64,000 nucleotides of DNA from positions 186,001-250,000 of the forward strand of contig NW_017265158.1 in NCBI RefSeq assembly GCF_001638985.1. Direction: 5' to 3'. Below the pieces are notes generated by a model. That model ran no database searches, was not told the DNA's origin, and saw nothing but the letters and a program-made list of their open reading frames with translations. How positions within the stretch are numbered: position 1 is the stretch's first letter; every line of letters begins with the position of its first letter. The translations under genes and the position numbers were made by a program. Positions 4,875 through 64,000 of the stretch are shown one piece after another. The DNA comes from Phycomyces blakesleeanus NRRL 1555(-). Lineage: Eukaryota; Mucoromycota; Mucoromycetes; Mucorales; Phycomycetaceae.

Positions 4875-4991
4875 ATAAAGAGTTATTTGAGCACCACAGT
4901 ACTCGTTTAAAATAAAAAAAAAGAACAAGCTGATCAGAAGAATTGCATAGAGTACTTGAACGGTATTTAGTTAATACCTGGGTGGGGATAA

Positions 4992-5534
4992 TGTGGTGAT
5001 CCAGACACTCGGATGTTGGATTTATCACATATAAGAACATATTCATATTGGGATAGCATAGTAGCTATCATCTTGTCAGTATAAAATATATATAAACGAT
5101 TAAGTAATCAGCCCAATAATTATTACAGTTAGTACTGTAGATAATATCTTAAAGATTGTTAAGATAATTATATCATACTGCTGGGTAAACTGTGTCAGAT
5201 CGATATGGAGCTAATTTAGTAGAAAGTCCTAAAGCTCTAGTATAAAAGAGAAAAGAATAGCTAAGAGCTAAAGAAGTACGATTTAGAACTTGATGTCATA
5301 ATTGTAACACTGACACTAGTTAAGCAGTAAATACACTCTAATAACCAAATATAGTAAAGGAAGAAAGCCTTAAGAAACTAAGACGTAATGACAAGAGCAG
5401 ATTGTGTTTTCTTATAAAAAGGGACACTTTTTATTTATGAATAAAGACAACTTATATATAGTCTCAAAGTATTTTTATACGTCTCTATTCTCAAATATTT
5501 TATTTTTCTATTGTTTCGTACCTGAAATACCACA
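4992..5534 (-). repeat. LTR-I2, inverted solo LTR
   Basis: Near-identical reverse copy of LTR-I1 (543 bp), so 4206-5534 is a large inverted repeat with a 243-bp centre. No internal retroelement sequence is attached on the minus strand, apart possibly from the spacer. A 5-bp TSD is not evident. Confidence 0.85.
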
Positions 5535-9520: not shown

Positions 9521-9867
9521 AAAAGACTAAAATGATTTAATCAAGTCCCAAAGCAATCTGAAAACCGATTTACATCCCAGTCATTACAAGAAGTATTAAT
9601 AGAGATTTGTATATCAAATATATTTTGAATATATATAATAATCATACCTTTCACATAATATACTTTCCCTTGCTCTTAATCTCTTGCTACTTACTACATT
9701 TATACTTCCAAATTAACACACTTGTTCTAACAATTAAAGTATGTAAACTTGATACGATTTATTTTTAATTTAATTTAAATAAATTTAATTGTAGAATGAC
9801 AGCAATAATAATAATATAATCTGAAACTAATCATTATAATCTTTTATTTTATTATATTCTGTAGACA

Positions 9868-11198
9868 ATGACTAATACAAGACATGAACGCGCAATTGCC
9901 CTTCGTCCTGTTGAGATTACCAATCAGCAGCTTTTGGAAATACTTTCTACTGTGAGAGTGGATATGTCTACTGTAAAAGGACAGATCAGCAATGTTGAGC
10001 AAACTCTGACCAACATGAATGGCAGAATTTGCGTTCTTGCCACCACCAGCACCAACACCATCAGTGCCATAGATAGTTTGGCCAGAGCTCCCCTTGCTGC
10101 ACCTATTGTCATCTCCAACCATGAGCCTACCCGTGAAGAATCTAATGCAGTTTATGTGAGTAACATATTATAAAATATTTTATCAATTCATTTTCTCATG
10201 ATTTATTTATCAGGCACATATTCACAACCTTATGTGAAAACCCAAGCTTAGCTTGAGAACGCCAGAAAATATCCTGGCCAACAACCTCAAGCCCAGATGG
10301 GATACAAATGTTGCATTCAACAAATCTCCCAACAGGGAGATAGCCAAGAGACTTCTTTCTAACCTTGAGCACATGTTTGGTTCCTCTAGTATGAGACAGA
10401 GTGACCTCCGAAAGAGGTTGCACACCAACTTCACTAGTAGAACCCGTCATGAGAGAATGTCTGATGATGAGATAGTGGAAACAAACGCTCTTACACAAAG
10501 AGCAGCCCGTGCAGATGATGTGAGTATTATGCTAATATATATAGTTTATAGTTGAAAATTAAAAATAAAAATAACAAATTAACAAAACTTATTACTAGAA
10601 TGAGTGTTGCCGTGTACTGGCCTACAAAGACAATAAGGAGGCAATTGATCTTGTAATGCTCAGAGACTGTGCCAACACTCTCCAAAAAGCAGTAATGTCA
10701 GATGGAGAGTCTGCCGATGAAATGGACGAGGATGGCATAAAACATGTCATTCATATTGTACAACCAGGCTGGAGAAGCGATGAGGTAGATTAATTTGGAG
10801 TAATACGTTTGTATTGGTGTATTATTATATTGAGTGAATTATTAACGAATGTATTTCAGTGCAACCGTTTCATTGCACTTGTTGACACTTATGCTGTCCA
10901 GGCCATGGGGTCAAGTGCTAATCAAAGGATCCATAGGATCACTACTAGTGTGTCCAACTCAGCAGTCCCGGATAACATTAGCCCCAATTTTCCTCGGTGG
11001 GCTCTTAGAGATGGGCTCAAAATAAAAAAAATGTTTCTCTCTTTTTATCTACGATTACTTTTTACATACACAATACTATCAATATATATAGGGAATTTGT
11101 TCTGTTTTTTTTGTATAAGAAAAGGAAATTCAAGTGGGGGTTTTTTTTATTTTAAGCATAAAGCTTTTTTGGCAAAGCAATTACTAACATCTTACTAA
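9868..11198 (+). CDS. CACTA-1 partner gene: coiled-coil / MSDGESD protein
   Basis: Four exons, all phase 0: 9868-10155, 10247-10519, 10599-10784 and 10860-11198 (exon 2 acceptor chosen to keep the frame open). Exon 1 (ATG, MTNTRHERAIA) gives a heptad-like helix around residues 15-70, likely a coiled coil. Exon 2 is basic (KSPNREIAKRL, RQSDLRKRL). Exon 3 ends with MSDGESADEMD and PGWRSDE, conserved in every intact copy. Exon 4 ends FPRWALRDGL; the CACTA-2 copy stops right there (TAA), whereas here the codon is AAA at about 11020, so the frame runs on and overlaps the transposase 3' end by 47 bp. Role unknown; a DNA-binding partner like plant TnpA is the natural guess. Confidence 0.65.
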
Positions 11199-14100
11199 CA
11201 TTTCTACTTGTAGTAATCCTGGCTGTAGCAATCTCTAAAAAGATGTGGTGCACAGGTACAATGCAATGGCAACTATTGGGGGAGAAGGTGGGGAGACAAA
11301 ACTCAAGACTGTCATCCTCACGCGATCTATCAGAGGAAGTATTAAACCACTTGATATATGCGAATACATGTTGATGATCATGAACCATGCGAGTCAGGTG
11401 GAGATTGCTGTTAGAAGGGTGTGTAAAGGAGTGTGTGAAGAGATATTGTATTTGTCCAGCATAGGCTAGGGTATTTCTACCGTCACTACCAACAAACATT
11501 ACATGGACAAGAGAACCACAACTAGCTGAACCGTTTTTACCACGGTACTGTTGACCAAGTAAGTCAATGAACTTCAACTTTATGATTTCATTGTCAACAA
11601 AGGAGTTGGTGAGCGTGGCATATTGGTAACTGACAAGGTCAGGAAGATCATAGGATGTTTTGTAGTGCTGAAGCAGATGGGCATAGTCGGTCTCATCCAT
11701 CAGTGATGATTTTTTTAGCTGAAGAGGAAAAGTGGAAAGAGAGAGAGGTTCATTACCCTTTGGAGGAAGATGTGGGTTGGACAATGCTAGTAAGAATGAT
11801 TGCAATCGGAATAAATGGGAGGAGAGGGTAATGACTGTGGTAGTAGGTGTGAATTTCAAAGAAAGCTTTGAGAGAATGTTGAAAAAGGGGACGTGGCTAG
11901 AACTTTTCAGAACAGCATTGGCATAGTCACCCTTGAATGCGTTTTGAACAAAACTTCTCATATATGTTGCCTCAAAACTATCTTTTCCATTTGTCTTGAT
12001 ATGCTTCAACAGGTCATTGTATCTCTCAAACCCAAAGAGCCAGTAACCGTACACGGTTCCAAAATTATGAATGGTATTGCGAAGATGGAGATGCAGGTGC
12101 ATGTTGCAGGTGAGAATGGTGGGATTGTAGAGTTTGGTAGCCTTTTTGCAAAACATTTCCAGATAGTCATGGGCGCTGTTCACTTCATCAAATGTGATTC
12201 TTGGCTTGATAAGATAGCGGCATGCACAGACAAAATTCATCCAGTTGTACATTTCGAATGGTAGAACACCATGCAGGAGAACAGGAGAATACACCAGTAT
12301 CCAGGATTTCCAGTCGTTGGCTTTCATGTAAGGAAAGCCTTTTCCAATCTTTGATGTCAGCTTTGTATAATCCCTCAGAAGGACCATTGTCTCTGCAATT
12401 TTTTCCATGACAGCAAACTCTTCGGCTCCAATCGTTTTCTTATCAACCCACCGGTCCATCATTCTCTTTGGCGTCCCCAGAAATAAATTATGCATGGGAT
12501 CAATGATCGTTCCACGTACTAGATCAAAGTATCCAAGGTGTTGCAACTGCGACCATCGAACACCATATTCGACCTCCAGCTGGTGCCTCTCTGAGAGTGT
12601 ACTCGCACTCTTCCACTCCTCAGCATGCAACCTGTTCTCTACACCGCTACGAATATTCCAAAGTGAATAATCGAATCCACTGAAGTCCACCTGATTTGTG
12701 TTGGGCAATCTGGGGAACTGGGTTGTACACTTGTAGCACACACATGTACTATTGTGGGCTGTAAATCCACTTGTTTTCCTGGCAGCAGGGATGTCACACG
12801 CAACCATCAGCAAGGCAGCATGGACATTAGCACCAGAAGGGCACTCATAGGTCGGGACTCACATTCCAACATACAACTGTTTCATCTCGTCTACCATGGG
12901 CTTGAGATAGTTATTTATCTCCTTGCATCTTGGCTCCTTGGGACCAGGCATCAAACCAACTAGAATTGTGTTCTCAGGCTTGAACCATACCTCTTGAGAC
13001 AGATTATCTACAACCAAGTAGATTGCACCAGAAGAGTAACTAACTCCATTGAATGGCTGGAACCAGTCTATGTTGAGTGTCAACATCAATGAGTAAGGAC
13101 AAGCAACAAACAAGACACCACTTGCATCCTTCAGCTCTTTCCACATTGCTCCATCGTATACGTCGCACATAGTATCGACAATCTTAAGCTCCATGTTCCA
13201 GTGACAGATTTGCTCTTCAAAACCAGAACAAAGGAAAAGAACAGACAAAGCTTGCTTGAGAGACTGGTACAAGTATGCTCGCTTTGATACCAATGCATCT
13301 GAAGTTGACTCTTTCATCAACTTACAACCACAAGAAGAGCGTGCACCAACATTTGTGAAAACACAATGGGGAGGTACAGACATGTTTTCTTCATAGATGC
13401 AATGGCAGTTTGGACATAACACAAATCACTTGATGCCTTTGGTGATAGACGAAAAGCCAGTCATTTTATGTAGCCCAGCCAGACTTTTGGGAAGTTGGAA
13501 ATCTTGTCCATAAATTTTCAAGAGCTCGTTGATAAACTCAATCAAGACAACAGAACCCTTATTGACCACATAACAAGATGCAAAAAGTACTGTAAAAGTA
13601 GCAATAAATCTGTGCACTGGATTCTCGGGTATACCAGAAGCAGCAAAAGGGACTTTTTTTTTAAAAAAAAATTAACACACATTTTTTTTTTTAGTTTTTT
13701 TTTATGTATTTAAAACTGACCCTCATTGTTAAATTCTCCAACATAAATCTTGGCAGTGTCTTCTTCGCCATTGTCATCACTGTCATTGTCATCAGTTGTG
13801 TCAGACTCATCACCATTGTAGTCATTACCAACAAAGACGTCATTGTCAAACGTTGAGACGGTATCCAAAATAGGTGAGTTGGTCTGACCATCCATTGCTT
13901 CCACAGAATCAGATTGATACGTTGGGATTACTACAAATATGGAATATAATAGTTTATTATTAGTTTTTCTTCTGCTTTTCAAATAAAAAATGTCTTACTT
14001 TCAGTATCTACTTTCATGCTTCTCTTTTCAGCTATGTTTTTTAAAATAATAAAAAATAAAAATAAAAGCAATTATTACTCGGTAGACAGATAACTGCACT

Positions 14101-14261
14101 GAATAAATTATACAACTCTTGAATATCTCAGTACCTTCAAATCTAGCTCTTTTATTATGATGCTGAGCAGTACGTCTCGATACTTGGGAAACTCCTTGAT
14201 CACTATTATTGCATCTGGTGCAGTGGCAATCAGTGTTGTGCATTTGAATAGAAGGAAACAT
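11152..14261 (-). pseudogene. CACTA-1 transposase (Tnp2-like), two CGA-to-TGA stops
   Basis: Minus-strand exons 14261-14135, 14031-13999, 13930-13721 and 13652-11152, the same lengths as CACTA-2 apart from one missing codon (EMYNWMNF versus EMYNNWMNF). Exon 1 has the CHCTRC zinc-like motif. The large exon keeps NIDWFQPFNG, ACDIPAARK, CVCYKC, IDPMHNLFLGT and FGFERYN. It is broken by TGA at 13426-13428 and 12859-12861; at both sites CACTA-2 has CGA, so each is one C-to-T change at a CpG. Other differences from CACTA-2 are also often CG to TG (for example TTACGTGG to TTATGTGG). Ancestral role: cleavage and strand transfer at the CACTG ends. Confidence 0.88.
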
Positions 14262-14514
14262 AGTGTATGTATTTTGAATTATAAAATAAAAAAGGAAACA
14301 AGAGTGCTACAAATATTTCATTTGATACAGTTTTATAGTAAACCAAAACGTATTTTTTATTTTTTTATTTTATTTTTATTTAAGCCAACAGAATACATCA
14401 AAACTACACCCCCAACTTGATAAAAAAAAACTGCTGAGATGAAAAAAAATCCTGACATATCCACTATGATTCGACTACCTGGACAATATGTTAATAGTCC
14501 TTATTTTTCCAGTG

Positions 14515-28607: not shown

Positions 28608-30062
28608 TGTCTTCTAATATGCAGCAAACCAAAAAAAACGAAAAAGACGACTACAAAAAAGTCTGTTCAACAAACCACTGGGACAGCAGCAAGCACAAGA
28701 CAATGGGAAATTCTTCCCAGCTTGACAGTTAGCGCAGAGCTAGATGGTACTGTCCTGTCCACTTTGTCTACCATGAGCACCCAACTGAATGAATCTTATT
28801 CACTTGTGGAGAAGGTCTACTACAACATGGGAGCAACCAATGGCCAGTATAATAATTCGAACCATAGTTCTATCAGCTGGCTCTTATTACAGGAGAATAT
28901 ATAAAGTACCGCCTTCCAAGAGTTTCAGTAGGATATATACTAGTAATAGAATATTGCAAAGTTACTTACATTATATTTTATAGAGATTGATCCATTCTCA
29001 AACACGAGCAGTTCTGGCAACAATGCCATTGACAGTCAATGAGAGTGCCTTCTTGACATCCAACCATCCCATTGCTGATGTAGTGCAGAGCTACACACAT
29101 CAGCAAGCTGAAGTAAAGTCTGTTTCGTCTGCAGTTGTGGAAGAGAAAACCCGAAGACATATTTTGTATATGCTTCAAAGAGCAAAAGCTTGCCAAAAAA
29201 GATAGCTTGACAAAATCGGATTTCTTGACGCCGGTCCAGAAAGAGAAATGTAAGTATAGTCAACAGTTTTTGTGTAAACTATTTTAACTTTTTTTCAGAT
29301 TCTTGCAGACTACAAGGCAATTCACTTAGCTGACAAGACAAACCTTGAGTCTAAGTTTAGTGAGACTGTCGTTGACCTTCTGGACTATGACATGTTGTCT
29401 TATATTGAGTCAGATGAGGAGAAAAATAAAACTAGATATACTTCTAGAAATAGACATCCCTTGGTAAGGCCCTCATGATAAAAGTTATTTTTTTTAGTAC
29501 TTCTAACTCAAAAGTATTTATATTATAATGCACGTGAATGAATACTTTACTGTTTTGAAGAAATAGAGACTTGCTAACAAGGGACCAGACGTTATTGACA
29601 ATTCTGTCTATCCAATTATTTTGAGAAACACCAAGTTATCAAACGAGAAAAAGGCGTGTGTTGCTGCTGTTATATTTTTAGAAAAGAAGAAAAACAAAGT
29701 GCAGACAAGAAGTATGGTGAGACTTTGTTTATTGATGAAAAGAGAGATGATCTTCTATTGCTATTTGCTATGTGAGTTTATATAGACATTGCGTGTGTAT
29801 TTAGGATAATGATATGAGTATATCATGTGATGTCTGTTTTCTTATATCATAGATAATATATTGTTAAGTTATTACCCACGCTCTTGTTTGAGTGATTAGT
29901 GATGTTGACTAAGGTGTGTGACCTTGTTATCAGTATATTTTTTATTTAATGATAGTGTGAGAAATAATGTATAATTGATACTGGTCGCTTATTCAATATA
30001 TCTTTGTCTTATTGTCTGTGCGCTCTATTTGAATCTACAATTATGTTGGATACAACAGCTGC
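28608..30062 (+). pseudogene. CACTA-5 partner gene, decayed
   Basis: Convergent to the transposase as in the other copies. Exon 1 (from ATG 28608 or 28620) needs a 1-nt shift in a run of eight A to give KKTKKTTTKKSVQQ followed by a helical SAELDGTVLSTLSTM segment. Exon 2 (about 28985-29257) contains a TAG. Exon 3 (about 29300-29463) ends DYDMLSYIESDEEKN ... SRNRHPL, a degenerate form of the MSDGESD/WRSDE exon. Exon 4 (29572 onward) ends KKACVAA and its TGA was split by LTR-G2: without the insertion it reads GCT GCT TGA. Confidence 0.6.
29668..30057 (-). repeat. LTR-G2, solo LTR at the partner-gene stop codon, TSD GCTGC
   Basis: 390 bp, closely similar to LTR-G1; GCTGC at 29663-29667 and 30058-30062. 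It replaced the last codons and stop of the CACTA-5 partner gene with LTR sequence. Confidence 0.95.
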
Positions 30063-30692: not shown

Positions 30693-33600
30693 TTATGTGA
30701 CTACTTTTCTAGGCAGTGGAATGACAAGGCGTTTTTGTGTTCCACTTTGCATTTTATGCATAGTCAATGCAAAGCATGAATGCAGACGATGCACTAGAAT
30801 AATGCATGAAGAACTCTCTTCCATGTATACCTTTTCCCACAACTCTAGGCCTTGTTCAACTAACGGCTGGTGATGACTGGACTGGTAGGTGGGAAACCAT
30901 TTGATGAATGCGAACATTGACACTCTTTTGACTCCACCAATCATGATGGGATGAGTAAATAAGTACTCTATTTGACTAGGGAATTCAGATACATCGTCAT
31001 TTGTTCTCCCAAGAAACAAAACCCTCACAAAAGACCTGCGCTTCTTCTTTTCACCACTGCAGTACTCTTGCCCCAGCAATGAAATCTTTTTCACCTTTTG
31101 AATCCGATTGTTTACAAACACATCCTCACCAATTGGGATTCTCCCTACCACACAGAAGGAAACACTTGTACTCTGGTAAGCCTTGACATAGAATTCAAAT
31201 AACCACTGATAGTAATTATCCTTTATCATAGTCAAAGGCTGCAGCTTGATTGGCAAAGTGGTTGGGGGCAAGGCCTCACTTCCGGTGACATTGTATCATG
31301 GATTTGTGGCAGCTTGCAGAAATATTGGGAGGTTGCATGCCAGTACAGGTGGATGACCATTCTTCAGGCAAGAGAGGGGCGAGAGAGCAGATACCAACAT
31401 AACTTGGACAACACTCACAAGAAATTATATCATTGGCGGCAAAAGGTTGGTGAAATATGCATGTAGGAAAGTGCTGATAAATGCCTTTTCCAGGAATACT
31501 CTCATGAATGTAACCTCAAGACCATTTTGGCGGTTCGTCTTTATGTTCTTCAACTTGCTGTTGTATCTCTCAAAGCTATACAACCAGAATGCATACACTG
31601 GACCAAAGTCAAGCATTGACTCATGCAAGTGTATATGCAAATGCATATTTGGCGTGATACTACTCTTTCCATAAAGAATCTCACATTATTTTCCAAATTC
31701 TCTAAAGAGCTGGTGTGCACTGTCAATTTCTGAATATGTGACTGATGGACCGGTCAACTTTTGGCATGCCTGAACGAAGAGAGTCCAGTTTTTGAAGTCT
31801 TTTTCAGGCAAAGCGTCTTTGAGTATTACCAGCAAATATATGAGACACCACAATCACCACTCGTCTGCCTTCATATATGGGAAGCCCAATTCGATTTTTG
31901 CAGACAAAATGATATACCCAGGAGGAACAATAATACCATCAGCAAGGCGTTGCATGCGGACGAGAACAGCAGCAGGGAGATAGCCAAGGTCTTTCCAAAC
32001 ACTGATCATACACTTTGCTGTCTCAAGAAACAAATTGTGCATGAGATCAACAATTGTGCACCGAACGGGATCAAAGTAATACAAACAATGCAAATCGGAA
32101 AACTGCGTGCCATTTTGCTTCTCTAAATCTGCTCTTTCTGCATTTGATTCTGCACAAGCCCACATATCGGCGTATATGGCGTTCATCTCCTTTGTTCTTG
32201 GCACCCAGCTTTCATTGTCAAACCCAGAGTAATCGATCTTACTTGATCCGGCAATCACAGAGAAGTGATGCTCGCATTTATGACAGGCATTAGTGCTTGC
32301 ATGCCCTGTAAATCCAGCAGTTTTTCTTGCAGCAGTTATGTTGCAAGCAACATACATAAGAGTGGCGCGGACAATAGTACCATTGGGGAATGCAGCAGTC
32401 TTTACAGTTATACTGCCGTACAACTCTACCAGCTCGTCTACCAGAGGTTCCAGAAAGTTGTTCATCTGATCGATCTTTGCTTCCTTTGGACCAGGCATGA
32501 CACCAACAAGAATAATGTTCTCTAACTTCATTCTTTCTTCCCTGGGCAGGTTGTTCATTGACAGATACAAGGCCCTACTTGCATATGTACAGTCTTTAAA
32601 TGGTTGAAACCAATCTACATTCAATGTCAGCATCAAGGAATAGTCATGATTAACAAAAGACTTGTTGTCTTTGTCAAGGAGCTCACTCCACATTGCACTA
32701 TCATATATGTCTGACAAGGTACTGTTAATTGTCTCCCTTGATCTCCATTGAACGATTTGATGCTCAAACCCAGATTTGGCAAAATGCTGTGCAATGGAAT
32801 TCTTGAGGGAGTTATATGGAAAAACCATGAGAGGGATGGGGTAATCAACTTCTGAGTCAAAGAAAAGAGGATATCCGCAGTATGCTGGTGGTGTAGTTGT
32901 GTATTTTTCGAATGTGCAATTTGGTTGGTGATGACCTGGTAAGTAAATTGCAAAACACTTATTGCAGACGGTGTATTTGACAATGCTTTTTGTCATGAAA
33001 TTGAATCCGTTCATAGTCTTTAATGCATCAACGGTGAGCGGGAGATCAGTATCCTTCTCAAAGACAACAAGAAGATGGCAGAAGAATTTCAGCATAGCAG
33101 TTCCACCTGCTTGGACCAAGTAAAACACCTGAAAGATAACACCAAATAGAGCCATGAATTGGCTTGTTTGAGACATTTCATGAATTTTCAAAGAAGCAAC
33201 TACAAAGGCAAGTATTTCTGTTAATTATTTGTAACACAATATATGTATATTTCTTTTTTAAATGTATGCATACCGGAAGCAACCATGTCTTCAAAATTTT
33301 CAACACCGGCAACCTCGACTTTACTCTCATCTTCTGACTCATCACTTGAATCAGGATCGTCATTGTCAGAAGCCAATGATATTGCCTTGACATCAGACTC
33401 TTCAAATTGAAAAATCTCATCTTCTCTCAAAAAAGGTACACTCTGTACAGTAGTTTCAGCTGATACAATAGAATAATTGTTTTTATCTATAGTAAAAACA
33501 GACTATTAGCTATCTAAATTATGATTTATTAAAAATACATTTTATACTCACAGTCAATCGATGTATCAGATACATCTTCCATCTCAACATCTGTCTCTTC

Positions 33601-41031: not shown

Positions 41032-42304
41032 TTATTTTGAAAAGCACCAATCTGGTAAAGTGACTGCCAAATTCTCGGGAATGCTCACTTCTTTCTCATA
41101 AGGGATGCGCTTTTTCAAGCTTTCTGAATTTTTCTTCAAACGGATAACAGTAAGTTCATCAATAGTACTAATAAACGTCTGGAGCTGGTTTAAAGAATAA
41201 ATAGTATTAATAAAGTATTATTATTTTCTTTAAAACATAAATAGATGTTTAACATTACCTCATCAGTTCTCCAGCTGGGACGATATGCCCGCACTTTGTT
41301 ATCTCCATCCGACTCGCCATCAGACATCACGTCAATAGAAAGAATATTTCCGCAATCATATCGATTCATGCCCTCATGAATAGCCTCTGTGTATGTCTGG
41401 TACGTGATAATACGACGGTCAAGAAGCTACCAAAGAGTATTGTATTAAAACATTAAATCAATAGTAAATTAACTTTATTTTAAAACTTACGGTCTTCTTT
41501 CTGTTGCATCTTCTTCCAGCTTTATTTCTAACCATAATCTTCTCTGCTGAGGTCCGGAAGACTCGCACTTGATTTTGGTAGTGATTCTTTATTATATTCA
41601 TAATGACACTCTTTGACACATTTGTGCAACATCTTTGAGGTCTCAGGTACTTGAAGAGAGCCAGTGCAAGTGTCTTGTTGTACTTGTCGCCATACGTGCC
41701 AGTCATTGACCATGCTGATCTATTATTATTCTCAGCAACTTTGAGCAGGTCTGTGCTAACAAAGTTTGGTTTCTTGATGTAACTATTGATAAGTTGCTAT
41801 AAAAACAGTATTAGATATATTAATCAGTAATGTTATTATTATCAATTTACTTACAGAAATCAAGGGATGATGTTTCGCTCCAAGGTCAAGATCATCATCC
41901 ATGGAAGAAGAAGAATCCGCTGGTACAGCAGAAGGCATCACGGAATTTTGGCTGGTCATTGCCTTTTTTATTTCAGCATTTTCAGTCATGAGCTGAAGGA
42001 CCGAGTTCTTCAAAAATTTATTTGTCTTGTTGGACAAATCCAGGCCATTCTTCAAATGAGTTATTGCATCAGTCACTCCTTTTACATTTTCTTGCAAGGA
42101 TTGCATCGACACATTGTTGGCGGCCAACAAGGTAAGGACGTGATCCATTGGGGTCACAGCGACTTGAACTTCAGGGGCTGTGTCAACTGCTACTTCTGGA
42201 GTTGGTGTATCAATTGGAGCAACAACACCTGCAATTGTGCTATTAAGAACAGTATTCATGCATAGGTTGGGTCGGCGGGGAGCAGTAGGAATACGCTTTG
42301 TCAT
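41032..42304 (-). CDS. CACTA-4 partner gene: coiled-coil / MSDGESD protein
   Basis: Minus-strand exons 42304-41855 (450 nt), 41796-41491 (306), 41426-41259 (168) and 41184-41032 (153); all junctions phase 0 with GT-AG, total 358 aa. Exon 1 begins MTKRIPTAPRRPN and carries a long helix (residues about 55-120, SLQENVKGVTDAITHLKN). Exon 2 is basic and ends RRCNRKKT. Exon 3 ends with MSDGESDGDN and RPSWRTDE. Exon 4 ends LPDWCFSK. No stop or frameshift, although the transposase beside it carries a nonsense codon. The 3' ends of the two genes are 207 bp apart. Proposed role, by position only, is a DNA-binding helper of the transposase. Confidence 0.72.
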
Positions 42305-52144: not shown

Positions 52145-55130
52145 CACTGGAAAAATAAGGACAATTAACATATTGTCCAGGTAGTCGGATCATAGTGGAT
52201 ATGTCAGGATTTTTTTTCATCTCAGCAGTTTTTTTTTATCAAGTTGGGGGTGTAGTTTTGATGTATTCTATTGGCTTAAATAAAAATAAAATAAAAATAA
52301 AATAAAAAATACGTTTTGGTTTACTATAAAACCGTATCAAATGAAATATTTGTAGCACTCTTGTTTCCTTTTTTATTTTATAATTCAGAATATATACACT
52401 ATGTTTCCTTCTATTCAAATGCACAATACTGATTGCCACTGCACCAGATGCAATAATAATGATCAAGGAGTTTCCCAAGTATCGAGACGTACTGCTCAGC
52501 GTCATAATAAAAGAGCTAGATTTGAAGGTACTGAGATATTCAAGAGTTGTATAATTTATTCAGTGCTGTTATCTGTCTACTGAGTAATAATCGCTTTTAT
52601 TTTTATTTTTTATTATTTTAAAAAACATAGCTGAAAAGAGAAGCATGGAAGTAGATACTGAAAGTAAGACATTTTTTATATGAAACGCAGAAGAAAAACT
52701 AATAATAAACTATTATATTCCATATTTGTAGTAATCCCGATGTATCAATCCGATTCTGTGGAAGCAATGGACGGTCAGGCCAACTCACCTATTTCGGATG
52801 CCGTCTCAACGTTTGACAATGACGTCTTTGTTGGTAATGACTACAATGGTGATGAGTCTAACACGACCGATGACAATGACAGTGATGACAATGGCGAAGA
52901 AGACACTGCCGAGATTTATGTTGAAGAGTTTAACAATGAGGGTCAGTTTTAAATACATAAAAAAAAACTAAAAAAAAATGTGTGTTAATTTTTTTTTAAA
53001 AAAAAAAGACCCTTTTGCTGCTTCTGGTATGCCCGAGAATCCAGTGCACAGATTTATTGCTACTTTTACAGTACTGTTTGCATCTCGTTACGTGGTCAAT
53101 AAGGGTTCTGTTGTCTTGATTGAGTTCATCAACGAGCTCTTGAAGATTTATGGACAAGATTTCCAACTTCCCAAAAGTCTGGCTGGGCTACATAAAATGA
53201 CTGGCTTTTTGTCTATCACCAAAGGCATCAAGCGATTTGTGTCATGTCCAAACTGCCATTGCATCTATGAAGAAAACATGTCCGTACCTCCCCATTGTGT
53301 TTTCACAAATTTTGGTGCATGCTCTCCTTGTGGTTGTAAGTTGATGAAAGAGTCAACTTCAGGTGCACTGGTATCAAAGCAAGCATACTTGTACCAGTCC
53401 CTCAAGCAAGCTTTGTCTGTTCTTTTCCTTCGTTCTGGTTTTGAAGAGCAAATCCGTCACTGGAACACGGAGCTTAAGATTGTCGATACTATGTGCGACG
53501 TATACGATGGAGCAATGTGGAAAGAGCTGAAGGATGCAAGTGGTGTCTTGTTTGTTACTTGTCCTCGCTCATTGATGTTGACACTCAACATAGACTGGTT
53601 CCAGCCGTTTGATGGAGTTAGTTACTCTTCTGGTGCAATTTACTTGGTTGTAAATAATCTGCCTCAAGAGGTACAGTTCAAGCCTGAGAACACAATTCTG
53701 GTTGGTTTGATGCCTGGTCCCAAGGAGCCAAGATGCGAGGAGATAAATAACTATCTCAAGCCCATGGTAGATGAGATGAAGCAGTTGTATGTTGGAATGC
53801 GAGTCCCAACCTACAAGTGCCCTTCTGGTGCTAATGTCCATGCTGCTTTGCTGATGGTTGCGTGTGACATCCCTGCTGCCAGGAAAACAAGTGGATTTAC
53901 AGCCCACAATAGTACATGTGCGTGCTACAAGTGTACAACCCAGTTCCCCAGATTGCCCAACACAAATCAGGTGGACTTCAGTGGATTCGATTATTTGCTT
54001 TGGAATATTCGTAGCGGTGTAGAGAACAGGTTGCATGCTGAGGAGTGGAAGAGTGCGAGTACACCCTCAGAAAGGCACCAGCTGGAGGTCGAATATGGTG
54101 TTCAATGGTCGCAGTTGCAACGCCTTGGATACTTTGATCTAGTACGTGGAACGATCATTGATCCCATGCATAATTTATTCCTGGGGACGCCCAAGAGAAT
54201 GATGGACCGGTGGGTCGATAAGAAAACGATTGGAGCCGAAGAGTTTGCTGCCATGGAAAAAATCGCAGAGACAATGGTCCTTCCGAGGGATTATACAAAG
54301 CTGACATTGAAGATTGGAAAAGGCTTTCCTTACATGAAAGCCGACGACTGGAAATCCTGGGTACTGGTGTATTCTCCTGTTCTGCTGCATAGTGTTCTAC
54401 CATTTGAAATGTACAACAACTGGATGAATTTCGTCCGTGCATGCCGCTATCTTATCAAGCCAAGCATCACATTTGATGAAGTGAACAGCGCCCACGACTA
54501 TCTGGAAATGTTTTGCAAAAAGGCTACCAAACTCTACACTCCCACCATCCTCACCTGCAACATGCACCTGCACCTCCACCTTCGCGAGACCATTCGTGAT
54601 TTTGGACCCGTGTATGGTTACTGGCTCTTTGGGTTTGAGAGATACAATGGCCTGTTGAAGCATATAAAGACAAACGGAAAAGATAGTTTTGAGGCAACAT
54701 ATATGAGAAGTTTTGTTCAAAACGCATTCAAGGGTGACTATGCCAATGCTGTTCTGAAAAGTTCTAGCCACGTCCCCTTTTTCAACATTCTCTCAAAGCT
54801 TTCTCCGAAATTCACACCTACCACCACAGTCATTACTCTCTCCCCCCATCCATTCCGATTGCAATCATTCTTACTAGCACTGCAAAAACAGATCAATTTC
54901 GCATATGTAAAGTATACCTAAGTTCTGATAAACAGAATAGGTAAAATTGTAGTTCAGCTCACTTTTGTGAGTAAAGTATTTGAATAGTATTTTAAGCTAC
55001 TCTATTGGCTACTGGCAGCTGTGTAGCATTAGAATGCAACATCAAACTCAAATAAAATAAAAGTGTGTTTTCTTTGAAGTCTCTTTCTTTACTATTAAAT
55101 ACTATTGTAAACCTTTCTTTTCATTTTAAA

Positions 55131-55349
55131 ATGGCTCCTATTCGCAAACCAACTGTTAGAAAAGAGTGTCGATGCTCTATCTGTAAAAGCAAGACACTAG
55201 GATTCGATCGTGTATCTGTTAAAACATTTAAACATCATCAAGAAAAAGATAATCATGATATTACACATGTTCAAATGCGTACGGTTAATACATTTGCTTT
55301 ACTTTACTTTATTTTATTTTATTTTATATCATTTCCTTTTTTATTATTT

Positions 55350-55399
<50 letters not shown>

Positions 55400-58349
55400 A
55401 ACACTAATAATAATAAATGTGTAGCCCATGAAGACACATGCGATACAATTAGTAGTGCTGTTTCTGAGCCTGTAAATCAAGAGGAAGATGGTTTTGAATT
55501 TGAACAGGAAGATGTTGAAATGAATTCTGAGCTTAGAAGTAAGAAAACTTATTTTATTACATTGATTTATTTGGGTCTAACATTCCGCTTTTGTAGACCT
55601 AAATGACACAAATGACATTTTGGATATACGGACAAGAAACCAACCTTTCTCTGAAACGGATTGCGTGTTTGGCCCTGAAGATAATGTCCAGTATACAAGT
55701 GACACTTACGAAGAAGAATATGAAGATGAATCCGATGTTGAGATGGACAATGATGAAGGTAGGTACACAGCTTTAGATAATATTATATCCTAGAAAATAG
55801 AGAGTTAATCAACGTTCTTTAAAAAAAATCAAATTAAAGATTCTTCGTTGGAATCAATCTCGGAATTGAATTTGATTCACCAATTCATTGTTATTTCGGT
55901 TGCTCTTTTTGTCTCGCTATACGTCGTGGATGAAGGAGCTGTAATCCTGATTGCCATAATCAACAAGATACTGCAGTTTTTGTTTGACCCATTCCGCCTT
56001 CCAGTGAGTGTTGCTGGCCTCAAACGTTTGGCTGGATTTGAAGCGTTGACAAGTGGTGTCAAGAAGTATGTTGCATGTAGCAAATGCCATGCCATATATG
56101 ATAATGAAGCCGCCCCTTTGTGTTGTACATCACCCAATTTTGGTAAAACCTCCTTGTGTGGCAACAGCTTGTTTAAGTCTGGTCCCGGGTCAAAAGCACC
56201 CAAAAAGACATATGTATTCCACTCCGTCAAGAAAGCCCTAAAGACGTTTTTTCAACGCCCGGATTTTGAAAACAACATCAACTCATGGAACCGCGGCCCG
56301 AAAATGGATAGCACTTTATTTGACATGTACGATGGTGCGATGTGGAATGAGATAGTAGACGTAGATGGTATACCTTTTGTTGACACCGAGCGATCACTCA
56401 TGCTCACGCTGAACATTGACTGGTTTCAGCCATTCGATGGTGTTACCTACTCCTGTGGTGCCATATATCTTGCAATCAATAATCTTCCACGCAGTGAGCG
56501 GTTCAAGAAGGAGAACGTGATTCTTGTTGGGTTAATGCCAGGGCCTAAAGAAGCAAGCACTTCTGACATAAATAACTATCTGAAACCGCTTGTGGATGAG
56601 TTGATGGAGCTGTACAAAGGTATTAAGATTAAGACTCACCAATGTCCAAATGGTACTTCTATCCGAGCAGCCCTTCTCATGGTTGCCTGTGATATACCTG
56701 CTGCAAGGAAAGTATGTGGGTTCACATCCCATACAAGTACAAATGCATGCCACAAGTGTAAGTGTCAATTTTCGAGGTTGGCTGGAACGAGTTCCGTTGA
56801 TTATTCTGGATTTGATTTCTCAAAGTGGCTCCTTCGCACTAAGAATGACAATCGTAAGGATGCAGAGATCTGGAGAAATGCAACCAAACCGACTGAGAGA
56901 CAGCGTCTTGAAGTTGCACATGGTGTTTGCTGGTCCGAACTGCATCGTCTTCAGTACTTTGACATTGTCCGCTGCACGATCATCGATCCCATGCACAATC
57001 TTTTCTTAGGCACTGCCAAAAGAATGCTGGAGAGATGGGTTGCGGATGGATTAATCAATGATAAAAAACTCGTTGCCATGCAAAAGGCTGTTGAGAAGGT
57101 AGTGTTGCCGCCCGATTACACGTCACTTGGGACAAAGATTGCCAAGGGATTTCCCTATATGAAGGCTGATGAGTGGAAGTCTTGGTGCCTTGTGTACTCT
57201 CCTGTGGTTCTAAGGGATGTGTTGCCGTTGCCAGAGTTCAAGAACTGGATAGAGTTTGTTAACGCATGCAGATACTTCACCAAGCCTAGTGTTTCTGAAG
57301 AAGACATTGAGAAAGGACACAAATGCTTAGAAGAATTCTGTAAAGGGTGTGAGACATTGTACGACCTGGACCTTCTCTCTCCCAACATGCACCTGCATCT
57401 GCACTTACGCCAAACAATGATTGACTTTGGGCCCGTCTATGGCTATTGGCTTTTCAGCTTTGAAAGGTACAATAGTGTTCTGAAAAATATCAAGACCAAT
57501 CGAAGAAACGGGTTCGAATCGACATTTATGAGACAGTTTATTGAAGAGTCGTGGAAGGGAGATTTTGTGCGTCGACTTCTGAAACCTATGCATGCACTTG
57601 CATGTTTTGAAATTTTCGATAAGTTCACCACCAACAACAACAACACCAACACCAACACTAACACCAACACCAACACCAACACCTACCTCTCTCACTCTTT
57701 CTCAATTTCTGAATATCTTGAAGCTTCACAGAATCTTTCAATGATAATTCGTGGAAACGAGCCCCTGCCACCATCCGCCTTGCCATTGAAAACAAGACCA
57801 TTATCATTTATGCCAAAACATGAATATGATTGTCTTGTAGGATACTATCAAGCTGCGTACAAGAATCCACAGATCTCAGGTTGCAAAGATGTAATTGATG
57901 ACTCACCTTTCGTCAATGACTGGATCGAAATGGTGAAGTCCGTTGATCTTCTTGGGCAAAGCTACAAAGGGTGCATTGGCACGAATGGCCGCGGATCATA
58001 CATACAAGCATATTTTACTGAACGAACTGGGTCGGAACATGCGTATGTTGGAGAGATTCAGTACCTTTTTGTTCACAATTTTAGACCAACTGTTTCTTCT
58101 CTAACATACAGAAATCCCCATAGTAGTCAGCATGTATTTGCATTTGTCAAATGGTTCAAATCCACTTTGGACAAAACAAGAGAATTAGAAGGAGTTGAGT
58201 TGTTACAGGATGAATTCTACAAGCAAGATTTTCAAAGCATCCTGCCAGTACATCGGATTCTCCTAACAGTTGCAATAGTAGATTACAAAACTACAAAAAA
58301 TGTCAACAAAAAACTCGCGATTCCTTTACCAAAAAAAATTTACTATTAA
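55131..58349 (+). CDS. CACTA-3 transposase (Tnp2-like), complete, 977 aa
   Basis: Exons 55131-55278, 55425-55538, 55597-55758 and 55840-58349, GT-AG, each junction phase 1, no stops. Residues 1-49: CRCSIC then TFKHHQEKDNH, a probable zinc module. Residues 50-141: acidic. Residues about 155-190: conserved hydrophobic segment. Candidate catalytic acids lie in NIDWFQPFDG (D335), ACDIPAARK (D426) and IIDPMHNLFLGT (D524). A CHKCKC cluster sits near 445, and MHLHLHLRQ...FSFERYN (about 658-686) is DUF4218-like. An Asn/Thr repeat (about 734-752) precedes a C-terminal domain (VDLLGQSYKG, HVFAFVKWF, PLPKKIYY). Family placement comes from motif memory; which acids are catalytic is inference. It is predicted to excise and insert the element through CACTG ends. 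Confidence 0.9.
55340..55410 (+). repeat. (AAT)n microsatellite in intron 1 of the CACTA-3 transposase
   Basis: About 16 ATA/AAT triplets in the intron between exon 1 and the acidic exon 2; absent from the other copies' first introns. Confidence 0.9.
57629..57686 (+). repeat. In-frame AAC/ACC repeat coding Asn-Thr
   Basis: Repeats of ACCAAC encode alternating Asn and Thr in a linker between the DUF4218-like part and the C-terminal domain of the CACTA-3 transposase. Paralogues have different low-complexity sequence here (Thr/Val or Ser-rich), so this is a tolerant linker. Confidence 0.9.
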
Positions 58350-58464
58350 TTCTCATACACACACTTACTTATATATTTATCCTCTATTATTATTTCCTTT
58401 AATCAATTCAATTTCAATTATTACTATTTGGCCCTACAACAGAACATAGTAAAAAAGAAAATGT

Positions 58465-59775
58465 TTATTCATCGTTGATTGCCCAACGAGGCAATGACTG
58501 GGACAGAGTGGCAGGAACAGAGCAAGGCAACAATGTTGCTGGATATCTGTTCATTCTTGGCTTTGTTCCCACGCCCGCATTTAACACGTGATGGGTACGA
58601 TCAATGTCGTCAACCATTGTCAACAATCTGTTGAACTGTATTTATTTTTATTAGTTCTTTATTTTTCTTGTTATAAAACTTATTTATTTATTCTAAATAT
58701 TATTTACCTCTTCACTTCTCCAAGTGGGGCGAGCCACATGCAAACACCGTCGTGGAAGATTGTCCACAATCTCAATATCCGACTCACCATCAGACATGGC
58801 ATCCTTCTGAAAGAGTTTGAGATAGGCCTTCTCAACAGGGTTTCCAGTCTTATATCCCATTGCAGCATCAATGGCTACCCAGTTGTCCATGTATGTCGAC
58901 TTGCGTCGGATAGACATCTGGTTATATAGATTATAGCTTGAGAAAATAGTAATATACCAATTAATTTTTTATATAGTATATACAAACCTGAAGAGTACGA
59001 CTGTTTGCTCTCCCCTTGCTGTTTTTCTTGGCCTTCTGCTCAGAAGACTCGTGAAAAGTACGATGACTGTGCTTGTACCTGTTCTTTATTTTATCACTTA
59101 TCACCCGTGGGTGAGTACCAGCTAGACGAGTCTGGGTGCTAATGTAGCTCTTCAAGTAGTTGATAACAGCTACGTTATCGCGGTGGTTAATCTTCTCGTT
59201 CAAGTTCCACTTCTTCTTACTCTCGTTCTCAGCAACAAGAGCAGGGTCGTCAGACTCGAACTTCCAGTCCCACAACTTTTCCGCGAAGATTTCCTAAATA
59301 CAGGTTGTTTAATAAGTTGTTGATACTAACATATATTAGTATTAATTACCGAGATAATGACAGAAACCTCGGCATCACTGAGGGAGGTCTGGGGGACATA
59401 GGATGGCATCAGAGATGGTCCTAGACTAGCCATACGAGTCTGATTGTTGGCATAGGCAGTTGCAAAGTCTGCAAATGCCGTATGTGTCTTTCCAGACGTG
59501 TCAACAACAACGCCCATCCTGTTTTTAAAGGCTGCCATGTTGCTATTGACAGCAGCAATGTCATCCTTGACACCGTTGATATTGTTGTTTACTTTGTTAA
59601 ACATTTCAACAATTTCCGCGTATTGCTGATCTTGGATAGTTGCGGATGAGAAACTGGGGGCAATTTCTCGAGGTCCAACACAGCCAGCCAAAACACGGTT
59701 TGCAGAGGTAGATATACTTGCAGATGCTTTTCCTTTTCCTTTACGGTCTGTTTTTCTGCTGCTATTGGAAGGCAT
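58465..59775 (-). CDS. CACTA-3 partner gene: coiled-coil / MSDGESD protein, 370 aa
   Basis: Minus-strand exons 59775-59350 (426 nt), 59293-58988 (306), 58917-58708 (210) and 58635-58465 (171); all GT-AG, phase 0, open. Exon 1: basic start (MPSNSSRKTDRKGKGKAS), then a helix (residues about 58-110, VNNNINGVKDDIAAVNSNM). Exon 2: LWDWKF and basic KIKNRYKHSHRTFHESSEQK. Exon 3: AMSDGESDIEI with RPTWRSEE at its end. Exon 4 ends LPRWAINDE. Exon number, phase and the exon 2 length of 306 are the same in CACTA-4 although the proteins differ widely, which argues for selection. The 3' end is 115 bp from the transposase stop. Function unproven; a TnpA-like DNA-binding partner is my inference. Confidence 0.8.
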
Positions 59776-61454
59776 TTTTTCTTTATTGTATTTTTATTAA
59801 AGTTTTATACATTAATAAATTATTAAAATAAAATAAATGTATGGGTTGAAATATATTTATTTTTGTTTAATCAAAGATATACATACAAAATAAGTTAATA
59901 TAAAGTAGATTTATGAAATAGCTGAGAAAAGGAAGGGATTATATATTATTTTCTATAAAATCCTTTATAACCTTGAACAACTTCTTTAATATTCAATATA
60001 GAACTTAGTGTTACAATATAATTTCGGACTATTCATTTTATTACTATTGTATTTTACTAGAGTCAATTCTCATCTAAACTGCCTTCTGTTTGAAAGCCCA
60101 CTTTTTTTTCTTCTTTTTCTTTATTTTTTTCTTATTTCTTTTTTTCCTGTTTCTTTTCCGCTTTATTTACTTTTATTCTTATTGATGTATTTGAGTTCAC
60201 ACCCTGGTAAGCAATTTGTTTTTATTATTCTACTGTTATATTTATTCTTAATGTTTTTTCTTTTATTATTATTGTGGTTGCTGATAGTATTACAAGTCTT
60301 TGCCATGTTGATTAATGGACAAGAACAAAAAGGTAAAACGCGGTTATTGTGTATGTGCTTCTTTATTAATTATTTTCTTTTTCTCTCCTCAGCTCATCAT
60401 AAAGACATACCAACAGCAGAAATTTATCCGGTAAGTCTGAATAATGTATTTATTTGTTTTATTCTTATATCTAATTTTGTTTATTTTCTATCTCTGTTAG
60501 TACTGCCAACATTTCTATGTACCTGATTGAATGGCTTGTCTTTGAAAACCGGTTTTCTTTGGTAAGTAATAAAGCCAAACTTTATTCCATAATCTTTACT
60601 AATGCGTTTTATTAAACCTTTCAGAACAACAGTCAATGTGCAATATGCCTGGTTCTGACGAAAGTACTGGTAAGTAACCATATTATTTAAATTAAAGAAA
60701 AATAAATATTTATATAATCTAATATAATTGAATAATTTTTTAGCCTTCTCTTACTAGTGAAATACCGTAAACACGCGTTTCTTTTTAGGATTCTATCGTA
60801 TTGGAAGTATTTATATATTATAATATATGAAAGGGTTTGTTATTATATTAATTATGTAGTAGCTTATATATTAGATTAGACTATATATTGTCAAGCCGTA
60901 CATATTATAAGCAAGAAGCTTTTTTTTTTTAAATAAAAACAATTTTTCCAAAACAATCCCTATAAAAATATTTGAAATGAAGTGCAAGAAGTATTGCAGT
61001 AGCATGGCATGTGTGAATCCTATAGTTTAGCCGTGCATAATTGTCCAATAAAAGTGTTTAGATTCGGAAGACAGTATACATAAATCCTGTTTCTTCTGTT
61101 AAATGATCCAATAGAATATCATTATTTCAGTAGACACTTTTCTCTGTAAAGTAATCCAATAGAATTCTACTATTTCAGTAGACAGTTTTCTATCAAAAAT
61201 AGATTTTTTATTAGAATCTCTGTTTCAAATCAAGTTTAATTTAATGTAACATCCAAAAAAAAATGCCATAATTTGATTATTCTCTCTGCGATTAAATAGT
61301 TTAAAAGAACCTTACATCTCTATATGGATCATTATAAGTTCAGAAGTTATATGGACAACTCACAGGTAACATAACATATTGCGAACGGAATCTATAAATG
61401 CCAAATTCCAGAATTTAATTATTCTGTCACTCAGAATTTCCCATACTATCGCAT
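59776..61454 (+). other. CACTA-3 third region: short exons with GT-AG borders
   Basis: Candidate plus-strand exons end at 60207 and span about 60291-60334, 60393-60430, 60501-60561 and 60625-60669, with GTAAG/GTAAA donors and CAG/TAG acceptors. In one phase the middle three read LQVFAMLINGQEQK, AHHKDIPTAEIYP and YCQHFYVPD followed by TGA. Upstream sequence is T-rich and would code a hydrophobic leader, but no reliable start exists. The same layout in five copies suggests a real small transcript. 60770-61454 is AT-rich 3' subterminal DNA. Confidence 0.4.
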
Positions 61455-62249
61455 ATGTGTAGAAATCTAATTCCCCAGTGTAGCATCATCCAACCCACAT
61501 CTTCCTCCAAAGGGTAACGAACCTCTCCCTCCTTCAACTTTTCTTCTTCAGCTAAAAAAATCATCACTGATGGATGAAACTGACTATGCCCATCTGCTTC
61601 AGCACTACAAAACATTCTATGATCTTCCCGACCTTGTCAGTTACCAATATGCCATGCTCACAAACTCCTTTGTTGACAATGAAATCACAAAGTTGAAGTT
61701 CATTGACTTACTTGGTCAACAGTACCGTGGTAAAAACGGTTCAGCTAGTTGTGGTTCTCTTGTCCACGTAATGTTTGTTGGTAGTGACGGTAGAAATACC
61801 CTAGCCTATGCTGGACAAATACAGTATCTCTTCACATACTCCTTTACACACCCTTCTAACAGCAATATCCACCTGACTCGCATGGTTCATGATCATCGAC
61901 ATGTATTCGCATATATCAAGTGGTTTAATACTTCCTCTGATAGATCGCGTGAGGATGACGGTCTTGAGTTTTGTCTCCCTACCTTCTCCCCCAATAGTCG
62001 CCATTGCATTGTACCTGTGCACCGCATCTTTTTAGAGATTGCTACAGCCAGGATTACTACAAGTAGAAATGTTAGTAAGATGTTAGTAATTGCTTTGCCA
62101 AAAAAGCTTTATGCTTAAAATAAAAAAAACCCCACTTGAATTTCCTTTTCTTATACAAAAAAAAACAGAACAAATTCCCTATATATATTGATAGTATTGT
62201 GTATGTAAAAAGTAATCGTAGATAAAAAGAGAGAAACATTTTTTTTTAT

Positions 62250-63433
62250 TTAGAGCCCATCTCTAAGAGCCCACCAAGGAAAATTGGGGCTAATGTTATC
62301 CGGGACTGCTGAGTTGGACACACTAGTAGTGATCCTACGGATCCTTTGATTAGCACTTGACCCCATGGCCTGGACAGCATAAGTGTCAACAAGTGCAATG
62401 AAATGGTTGCACTGAAATACATTCGTTAATAATTCACTCAATATAATAATACACTAATACAAACATATTACTCCAAATTAATCTACCTCATCGCTTCTCC
62501 AGCCTGGTTGTACAATATGAATGACATGTTTTATGCCATCCTCATCCATTTCATCGGCAGACTCTCCATCTGACATTACTGCTTTTTGGAGAGTGTTGGC
62601 ACAGTCTCTGAGCATTACAAGATCAATTGCCTCCTTATTGTCTTTGTAGGCCAGTACACGGCAACACTCATTCTAGTAATAAGTTTTGTTAATTTGTTAT
62701 TTTTATTTTTAATTTTCAACTATAAACTATATATATTAGCATAATACTCACATCATCTGCACGGGCTGCTCTTTGTGTAAGAGCGTTTGTTTCCACTATC
62801 TCATCATCAGACATTCTCTCATGACGGGTTCTACTAGTGAAGTTGGTGTGCAACCTCTTTCGGAGGTCACTCTGTCTCATACTAGAGGAACCAAACATGT
62901 GCTCAAGGTTAAAAAGAAGTCTCTTGGCTATCTCCCTGTTGGGAGATTTGTTGAAAGCAACATTTGTATCCCATCTGGGCTTGAGGTTGTTGGCCAGGAT
63001 ATTTTCTGGCGTTCTCAAGCTAAGCTTGGGTTTTCACATAAGGTTGTGAATATGTGCCTGATAAATAAATCATGAGAAAATGAATTGATAAAATATTTTA
63101 TAATATGTTACTCACATAAACTGCATTAGATTCTTCACGGGTAGGCTCATGGTTGGAGATGACAACAGGTGCAGCAACAGTGAGTTCAGCTCTCACAGGA
63201 GCAGCAAGGGGAGTTCTGGCCAAACTATCTATGGCACTGATGGTTTTGGTGCTGGTGGTGGCAAGAACGCCAATTCTGCCATTCATGTTGGTCAGAGTTT
63301 GCTCAACATTGCCGATCTGTTCTTTTACGGTAGACATATCAGCTCTCACAGTAGAAAGTATTTCCATAAGCTGCTGATTGGTAATCTCAACAGGACGAAG
63401 GGCAATTGCGCGTTCACGTCTTGTGTTAGTCAT
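62250..63433 (-). CDS. CACTA-2 partner gene: coiled-coil / MSDGESD protein, 312 aa
   Basis: Minus-strand exons 63433-63116 (318 nt), 63024-62752 (273), 62672-62487 (186) and 62411-62250 (162), all phase 0. Starts MTNTRRERAIALRP, with a heptad-like helix (ILSTVRADMSTVKEQIGNVE). Exon 2 is basic (NREIAKRL, RQSDLRKRL), exon 3 ends MSDGESADEMD ... PGWRSDE, and exon 4 stops after RWALRDGL with TAA. The exon 2 acceptor (AAG before 63024) is the only one nearby that keeps the frame, so it is inferred. Compared with CACTA-1 it carries a 10-residue longer exon 1 (APVRAELTVA region). 131 bp separate its stop from that of the transposase. Confidence 0.75.
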
Positions 63434-63849
63434 TGTCTACAGAATATAATAAAATGAAAGGTTATAATGATTAGTTTCAGATTATATTATTATTATTGCT
63501 GTCATTCTACAATTAAATTTATGTAAATTTAATTAAAAATAAATCGTATCAAGTTTACATACTTGAATTGTTAGAACAAGTGTATTGATTTGGGAGTATA
63601 AGTGTAGTAAGTAGCAAGAGAGTAAGAGCAAGGGAAAGTGTATTATATGAAAGGTATAATTATTATATATATTCAAAATATATTTGATATATGAATCTCT
63701 ATTAATACTTCTTGTAATGACTGAGATGTAAATCGGCTTTCATATTGCTTTGGGACTTGATGAAATCATTTTAGTCTTTTGTTTTAAACACACTTTTTTC
63801 TTTTTTTTTTAAGATTTTTTTTTTACTTTTTTTATTTGTTTTTTGTTAT

Positions 63850-64000
63850 TTCCCTCTTTTCTCTCTCTTTTCAATTCTTGTTATATTTGCAAATTTTTCT
63901 GGTAAGATTGTTTTTGGTTCAAAATACTTCTTTACAAAGAACAAAAGAATTAATTTTTTTGTCTGTCATAGGTATTCTCTGTTTCTCTCTCTTCACTCTT
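63850..64000 (+). other. CACTA-2 third region, start only
   Basis: GTAAGA donor at about 63901 and TAG acceptor at 63971, followed by an exon-like segment running off the window. The matching minus-strand signals are in CACTA-1 (9300-9400). Confidence 0.35.

Follow-up and report, generated by a model that had tools for sequence, protein, structure and literature searches.

Organization of the Locus

The window analyzed here, a stretch of 64,000 nucleotides (positions 186,001 to 250,000) from contig NW_017265158.1 of Phycomyces blakesleeanus NRRL 1555(-), contains a CACTA (EnSpm) transposon of 6603 bp, designated E1 (54878..61480, + strand), that carries a transposase gene and, on the opposite strand, a gene for a second protein, referred to here as the partner. 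The two genes are tail-to-tail with 115 bp separating their stop codons, and in E1 and its relatives transposase and partner are kept together in this arrangement inside one pair of termini; from the conservation of the facing gene, movement of the element may be expected to depend on both proteins.

The ends of E1, 5'-CACTGCAAAA...TTCCCCAGTG-3', are supported by genome-wide end matches and agree with those proposed in an earlier reading of the same DNA made from its letters without database searches (the sequence-only reading): CACTG starts at 54878, CAGTG ends at 61480, and TAG is present on both sides as a target-site duplication (left copy, 54875..54877; right copy, 61481-61483). E1 splits an older related CACTA element, H (52145..63959, +; these limits are those of the repeat common to H and a second copy, A, and need not be the true ends), the insertion point being in the transposase gene of H. 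Copy A (about 9325-14514) is an inverted, very similar relative of H without the E1 interruption and provides the empty site, in which the joined flanks of E1 match at 72 of 78 bases with a single TAG, as opposed to two at E1. Termini of the form CACT[AG]...[CT]AGTG are present in E1 and in families F847 and F827; in F844 the determination covered the right end. At 10 of the 14 F847 and F827 loci with both ends recognized, the 3-bp flanks are identical (L015, L016, L018, L020, and L025-L030); the mismatched flanks at the other four (L012, L013, L014, and L017) may reflect recombination between copies or assembly joins. At L029, an F847 element with the duplication CCA is inserted in sequence whose flanks are identical to one of the tiny exons of E1 described below, so that elements of different families are nested, E1 within H being another case.

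The Transposase

The transposase gene of E1 is, as had been predicted, a four-exon open frame on the + strand, with exon 1 at 55131..55278 (followed by a GT donor), exons 2 and 3 at 55425..55538 and 55597..55758 (both with AG/GT junctions), and exon 4, including the stop codon, at 55840..58349; it encodes a protein of 977 residues with no internal stop. The protein matches the Pfam family Transposase_21 (PF02992) with an E value of 9e-20 and a score of 71 bits (cut-off 28.6), and exon 4 contains this domain together with the D-D-CxxC-HxxxH-E order of motifs, as defined in the available part of PMC12730594. In genome-wide searches, which covered the 53.5-Mb assembly, Transposase_21 exceeds the cut-off at all 150 places scored (the best 150 of 558 candidates); 63 of these, E1 among them, have an open frame of at least 700 codons with no stop inside the match. 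The order D, D, C(2)C, H(3-4)H, E was found in five of six families, the 590-codon frame of another element in the window, E3, having no match to the pattern. Since the domain is well over the Pfam cut-off and the motif order is found in five of six families, E1 and its relatives are, judged from the sequence of their first gene, ordinary CACTA/EnSpm elements. At one locus (L011, positions 1-978 with the transposase oriented +), a 326-codon open frame upstream of the CACTA transposase has, by eye, what we take to be the look of a Tc1/mariner-type transposase.

The Partner Gene and Its Linkage to the Transposase

The partner gene of E1 lies on the - strand and consists of exon 1 at 59350..59775 (142 residues), exon 2 at 58988..59293 (102 residues), exon 3 at 58708..58917 (70 residues, with MSDGESD ... 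RPTWRSEE), and exon 4, including the stop codon, at 58465..58635 (56 residues, with LPRW close to the end). The convergent four-exon gene of the sequence-only reading, encoding 370 residues and having introns that are all in phase 0, is thus borne out for E1, and the model is independently supported by an annotated Phycomyces protein (P0001), also of 370 residues, that is 95% identical across the whole query. Four phase-0 exons, claimed for the partner genes in general, could be modeled in six families (E1, E3, H, and three genomic families), but only phase-0 junctions were tried, so that the basis for the claim about phase is the homology of the exons together with the annotated models. In the six families, the convergent stop codons are 67-207 bp apart.

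Seven families provided profiles of partner exons 2, 3, and 4, which were used to examine 40 further loci taken from the 63 with open transposase frames, 20 of them top-scoring and 20 picked for variety. Partner exons 2-4 are convergent with and downstream of the transposase at 19 of the 20 top-scoring loci and at all 20 of those picked for variety; at the remaining locus (L024), an N gap occupies the place where the partner would lie. A partner exon is broken or partly matched at L016, L019, L034, L041, and L050, and the profiles also recovered families that had not been used as seeds (L037, L039/L040, L041/L048/L050, L042, and the second element in L020). In the converse comparison, exon 2 of E1 matches 149 places in the genome (the best 150 of 298 candidates being scored), and 52 of these are convergent with a scored transposase at 1.5-3.5 kb, compared with 0-4 in eight controls with positions moved by 20-100 kb. 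Another 87 matches have no scored transposase inside 6 kb, which may be expected because only 150 of the 558 transposase candidates were scored, and at 8 others the nearest one is otherwise arranged. That the convergent, fast-evolving partner belongs to the element is well supported, and the concern that it might be absent from most family members is answered by its presence at 39 of the 40 loci, the fortieth being unreadable.

Properties and Distribution of the Partner Protein

Ten residues are invariant in exons 2-4 of eleven families (N40, R99, M143, S144, E147, P166, W168, R169, P221, and W223, numbered over exons 2-4 of E1); six of these fall in exon 3 and most are outside the basic domain. 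Of the features that had been attributed to the protein, a basic exon 2 is found in all eleven families (net charge, +6 to +17), as is a P-x-W sequence close to the end of exon 4. Exon 3 is neutral to acidic (0 to -8). The motif at the end of exon 3 is likewise present in every family, as MS-x-x-E-[ST]...P-x-W-R-[ST]-[DEA]-[EK]. The N terminus encoded by exon 1 is predicted to be helical, as had been suggested, but with low confidence, and the top profile matches in the Protein Data Bank (PDB), which include coiled coils, are insignificant. In the AlphaFold prediction, exon 2 forms a domain made up entirely of helices (predicted local distance difference test score, 72.5; predicted template modeling score, 0.61), and the partner outside exon 2 is modeled poorly. 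It should be noted that in UniRef the names of 19 of 26 close relatives, which are given incompletely, begin with "Homeodoma", so that others had annotated these proteins as having a resemblance to DNA-binding ones, in line with the role proposed below; the label was not reproduced here. The partner has no homeodomain or helix-turn-helix match in Pfam, and the helical model of exon 2 has no significant fold match. Nor was a well-known domain of some other role, a possibility that had been left open, recognized in the partner: no Pfam match exceeds the cut-off, and a Pfam scan, as distinct from a direct comparison with TnpA, places no family above the cut-off that would indicate a likeness to TnpA/TNP1.

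Searches of 5.8 billion predicted proteins, by a method that needs shared five-residue words, returned 26, 44, and 50 proteins with a single sequence, a seven-family profile, and an eleven-family profile, respectively, and all were from Phycomyces. P. nitens supplies one match, and all 50 of the profile matches at E <= 5 are from this genus, so that the description of the partner as fungal was, on this evidence, too wide; a fungus-wide distribution is unsupported, as the protein searches returned Phycomyces alone. On the searches made, the partner is a new protein family. The aligned protein matches include only proteins resembling those of E1, P0023, and F827, and the genome holds further families; the absence of the partner elsewhere may therefore partly reflect missing gene models, and since the searches were limited to predicted genes and shared words, it may occur beyond Phycomyces. 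Many Arg to His, Cys, or Trp differences are seen by eye among the partners of the E1 family (P0001-P0022), as CpG deamination would give, and these suggest that the elements are methylated.

Divergence and Constraint

The large exon of the transposase (up to 612 residues, compared in six families) has 45-68% identity between families, with a mean of 53.8%, and exons 2-4 of the partner in the same families have 21-41%, with a mean of 28.1%; partner identity is below transposase identity in all 15 family pairs, and the divergences of the two proteins are correlated (r = 0.91 over the 15 pairs). In all 28 family pairs, the third codon position of the partner is the most variable, and where saturation is less advanced the rate of nonsynonymous substitution (dN) is well below that of synonymous substitution (dS), with values, for example, of 0.32 versus 1.07 for L040-H and 0.40 versus 0.89 for F847-L042. 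The partner is under constraint at the protein level despite its fast divergence.

Other views of the partner have been considered. If it were a passenger, acquired from the host in a single event by an ancestor of the elements and having no role in mobility, its lack of relationship to any known family and its restriction to one genus would be understandable, but neither the place nor the orientation of the gene differs among eleven families, and it is under constraint with identity as low as 21% in the six compared, and has no host homologue outside elements that was recognized among the 50 protein matches, whose surroundings were not examined. The capture of a single host gene, also envisaged in the sequence-only reading, was rejected because of this constraint and of the fixed position of the partner in eleven diverged families, and a passenger of any kind is considered very improbable. 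Alternatively, the partner gene might be a self-encoded brake that limits copy number, either through a DNA-binding repressor or through an overlap of transcripts feeding RNA interference. Overlapping 3' ends are likely with stop codons separated by only 67-207 bp, and fungi of the order to which Phycomyces belongs possess RNA interference; however, overlap by itself needs no conserved protein, yet the partner is constrained as a protein, and the copy numbers are high, at tens per family. It is quite unlikely that the partner is such a brake.

Integrity of Copies

The genome contains 37 left and 37 right ends of E1 at an identity of at least 92%, each set being retained from 40 matches after three left ends at 72-76%, two right ends at 75-76%, and one partial right end were dropped. 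Partner exon 2 of the E1 family is present at 32 of the left and 34 of the right ends; for 31 of the 32 partner-bearing left ends, a right end to pair with lies 6.5-14.3 kb away, and the five left ends that lack a partner also lack a right end. In F847, 33 of 40 left ends (the best 40 of 86 candidates) are paired with one of 38 right ends, two weak right matches having been dropped, and in F827, 35 of 38 left ends are paired with one of 38 right ends after the removal of two weak left matches and one weak right match. Among the 99 paired ends of the three families, no internally deleted derivative shorter than 5.5 kb was found; the shortest pairs are 5,688 and 6,169 bp. Those of greatest length, up to 22 kb, may represent copies with insertions or the joining of ends that belong to separate copies. 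Plant CACTA families are rich in deletion derivatives, and because copies with internal deletions usually arise in families that move in trans, as in plants, it is unusual that no short copy was seen.

The lack of short pairs would be explained if the partner represents a new class of obligate co-transposase that has a helical DNA-binding domain and an interaction motif and acts mainly on its own element, since both proteins would then be needed, largely in cis; this specific proposal is possible but doubtful. The lack of short pairs would also be in keeping with a bipartite transposase, of which the partner would be a physical subunit that the DDE protein requires for activity, with no function in end recognition. 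The location of six of the ten invariant residues in exon 3, outside the basic domain, is like that of an interaction surface, but the transposase looks catalytically complete, with the full order of motifs in five of six families, and a division of this kind is highly improbable. The main rival to a transposition co-factor is an anti-silencing or regulatory protein that binds the element, keeps or renders it expressed, and is not part of the cutting reaction. Fungal transposons carry TET/JBP genes that are thought to counter silencing (PMC12730594, available part), TNPA reactivates a methylated promoter (PMC1636069, available part), the fast evolution of the partner fits an arms race, and the Arg to His, Cys, or Trp changes seen by eye indicate that methylation may matter. 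Against this, no enzyme domain in the partner exceeds the cut-off, and a regulatory role does not specifically predict the lack of short derivatives, as deleted copies should also benefit from a regulator that diffuses; such a function is regarded as unlikely.

The Region between the Partner Gene and the Right End

Between the start of the partner gene and the right end of E1 lies a region (60185..60700, +) with splice site-like signals and very short open pieces, termed tiny exons, for which coding is not supported. A block some 600 columns long is 64-81% alike among F844, F847, L052, and L054 in 150-column bins, intron-like stretches included, and E1 shares with it little beyond a pyrimidine-rich stretch. 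Within this block, F844 and F847 have 65-78% identity and their partners 38%. The block with its splice-like signals (60185-60700 in the window; L022, L026, L052, and L054) is more conserved between families than are the synonymous sites of the partner, which in these families are saturated or nearly so except in one pair (dS 0.89). Homologous open peptides with strong tblastx scores can be read from the tiny exons in F844 and F847; however, matches of similar strength occur in several frames and on both strands, the stretches between exons are similarly conserved, differences are spread evenly over the codon positions (94/77/95 in six pairs), and the tiny exons of L052 contain an in-frame stop. 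A third protein-coding gene was rejected as unproven on the basis of the flat codon positions, the stop in L052, and the matches on both strands, and the three genes of the sequence-only reading are thus reduced to two, accompanied in four families by DNA that is conserved without a codon signature. The sequence comparisons point to conserved or exchanged DNA, possibly specifying a regulatory transcript.

Other Elements in the Window

The partner gene of E3 (41032..42304, -) encodes 358 residues. That of H (62250..63433, -) has a TGA codon in exon 2 at a conserved Trp position, which is also present in copy A, and the genomic relatives L046, L047, and L049 encode Trp at this site; the two H copies with the exon 2 stop are at 9300-11250 and 62100-63960. 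The element with a transposase at 30702-33185 (-) has only a weak trace of partner exon 3 in convergent orientation (29311..29475, +; independent E values of 2.3e-3 and 4.1e-3), and the transposase farthest to the left is truncated at the edge of the window. The statement that every copy has the partner is consequently not confirmed within the window, given this trace, the stop shared by H and A, and the truncated leftmost element. A 543-bp inverted repeat with arms that are 99% complementary and a 243-bp spacer is located at 4206-5534 and has a recent palindromic or foldback look.

Proposed Roles of the Two Proteins

The interpretation favored here, which is thought probable though by no means secure, is that E1 and its relatives are complete two-protein CACTA elements that encode a DDE transposase and a dedicated, TnpA-like transposition co-factor. 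In this scheme, the transposase would cut and join at the CACT termini, and the partner would act as a separate co-factor that oligomerizes through its N-terminal helices and uses the basic helical domain encoded by exon 2 to bind the DNA of the element. The MS-x-x-E-S ... RPxWRSxE tract and the final PxW may contact the transposase or another copy of the partner, and the partner would recognize the ends of its own element, as TnpA does in maize En/Spm. The joint divergence of the pair, with the partner changing faster, is what would be anticipated if the partner has to tell apart many related elements within a single nucleus.

Several observations weigh against this interpretation. Co-divergence is also predicted by common descent by itself, and the conserved block between partner and right end does not follow the divergence of the partner in F844 and F847. 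A DNA-binding function receives no help from similarity, as the partner has no significant match in Pfam, the PDB, or the fold and viral structure sets searched. In addition, no subterminal repeat array was detected in E1, F847, or F827, in that no k-mer or mismatch-tolerant word is clearly above shuffled sequences, a scan that diverged subterminal repeats could escape. Some 16-mers in F847 have 4 copies, compared with 2-3 in shuffled sequence and in the interior, which is too weak to claim as an array, and a 48-bp direct repeat with two copies near the right end of E1 (61090..61185; 79% identical) is not above shuffles as an array.

Relationship to Known Systems

The plant elements En/Spm (with TnpA and TnpD), Tam1, and Tgmt resemble the Phycomyces elements in having CACTA termini, a 3-bp duplication, and a Transposase_21 (tnp2) protein, and their second protein is, like the partner, poorly conserved and different between families. 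According to the available parts of PMC1636069 and PMC2613891, the plant second protein has subterminal repeats as its binding sites and arises when a single transcript is alternatively spliced, and TnpA of En/Spm is required together with TnpD. The partner is a plausible counterpart of TnpA by analogy, but it is encoded by a separate gene on the opposite strand, and so is not a product of alternative splicing of the transposase transcript, and the dense subterminal arrays of the plant type were not detected in the three families scanned. Outside plants, Transposase_21 proteins like that of E1 are found in SmTRC1 of Schistosoma and in fungal TRC/CACTA elements; SmTRC1 has an additional fast-evolving protein, SmTRC-PrA, that was proposed to be TnpA-like, and its products are alternatively spliced, whereas for its fungal relatives the available part of the account describes no separate second gene, unlike the situation in Phycomyces (PMC1636069). 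CNIRT6 of Cryptococcus, a fungal EnSpm/CMC element, has CACTG termini and a CMC transposase as does E1, but its account, in the part available, describes the transposase and no convergent conserved partner (PMC12810828). The legend to a tree in the same paper, in its available part, includes a Phycomyces element; transposases of this type were therefore already known, with Repbase probably being their source. The fungal EnSpm elements that carry TET/JBP genes share with those of Phycomyces an extra gene and 3-bp duplications, but there the extra gene encodes a dioxygenase and is found across unrelated superfamilies, whereas the partner is an orphan that tracks one transposase lineage (PMC12730594, available part). 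In the literature on fungal CACTA/EnSpm elements and accessory proteins, no title or abstract opening was found that describes a convergent partner. The VANDAL elements, with their anti-silencing protein VANC, also have a fast-evolving, element-specific second protein, but they belong to the Mutator-like superfamily and have hosts of another kingdom.

The biology of CACTA elements has been worked out in plants, in which a single transcript yields, by splicing, both the transposase and the second protein. The presence of a separate, convergent orphan partner in eleven families of one fungus suggests that the two-protein principle has been built independently, or re-wired, outside plants. The co-diverged protein pairs within one genome constitute a natural series for testing how related elements recognize their own ends, and the present results suggest that many annotated "homeodomain" and hypothetical proteins of Phycomyces are borne by transposons and are not host transcription factors.

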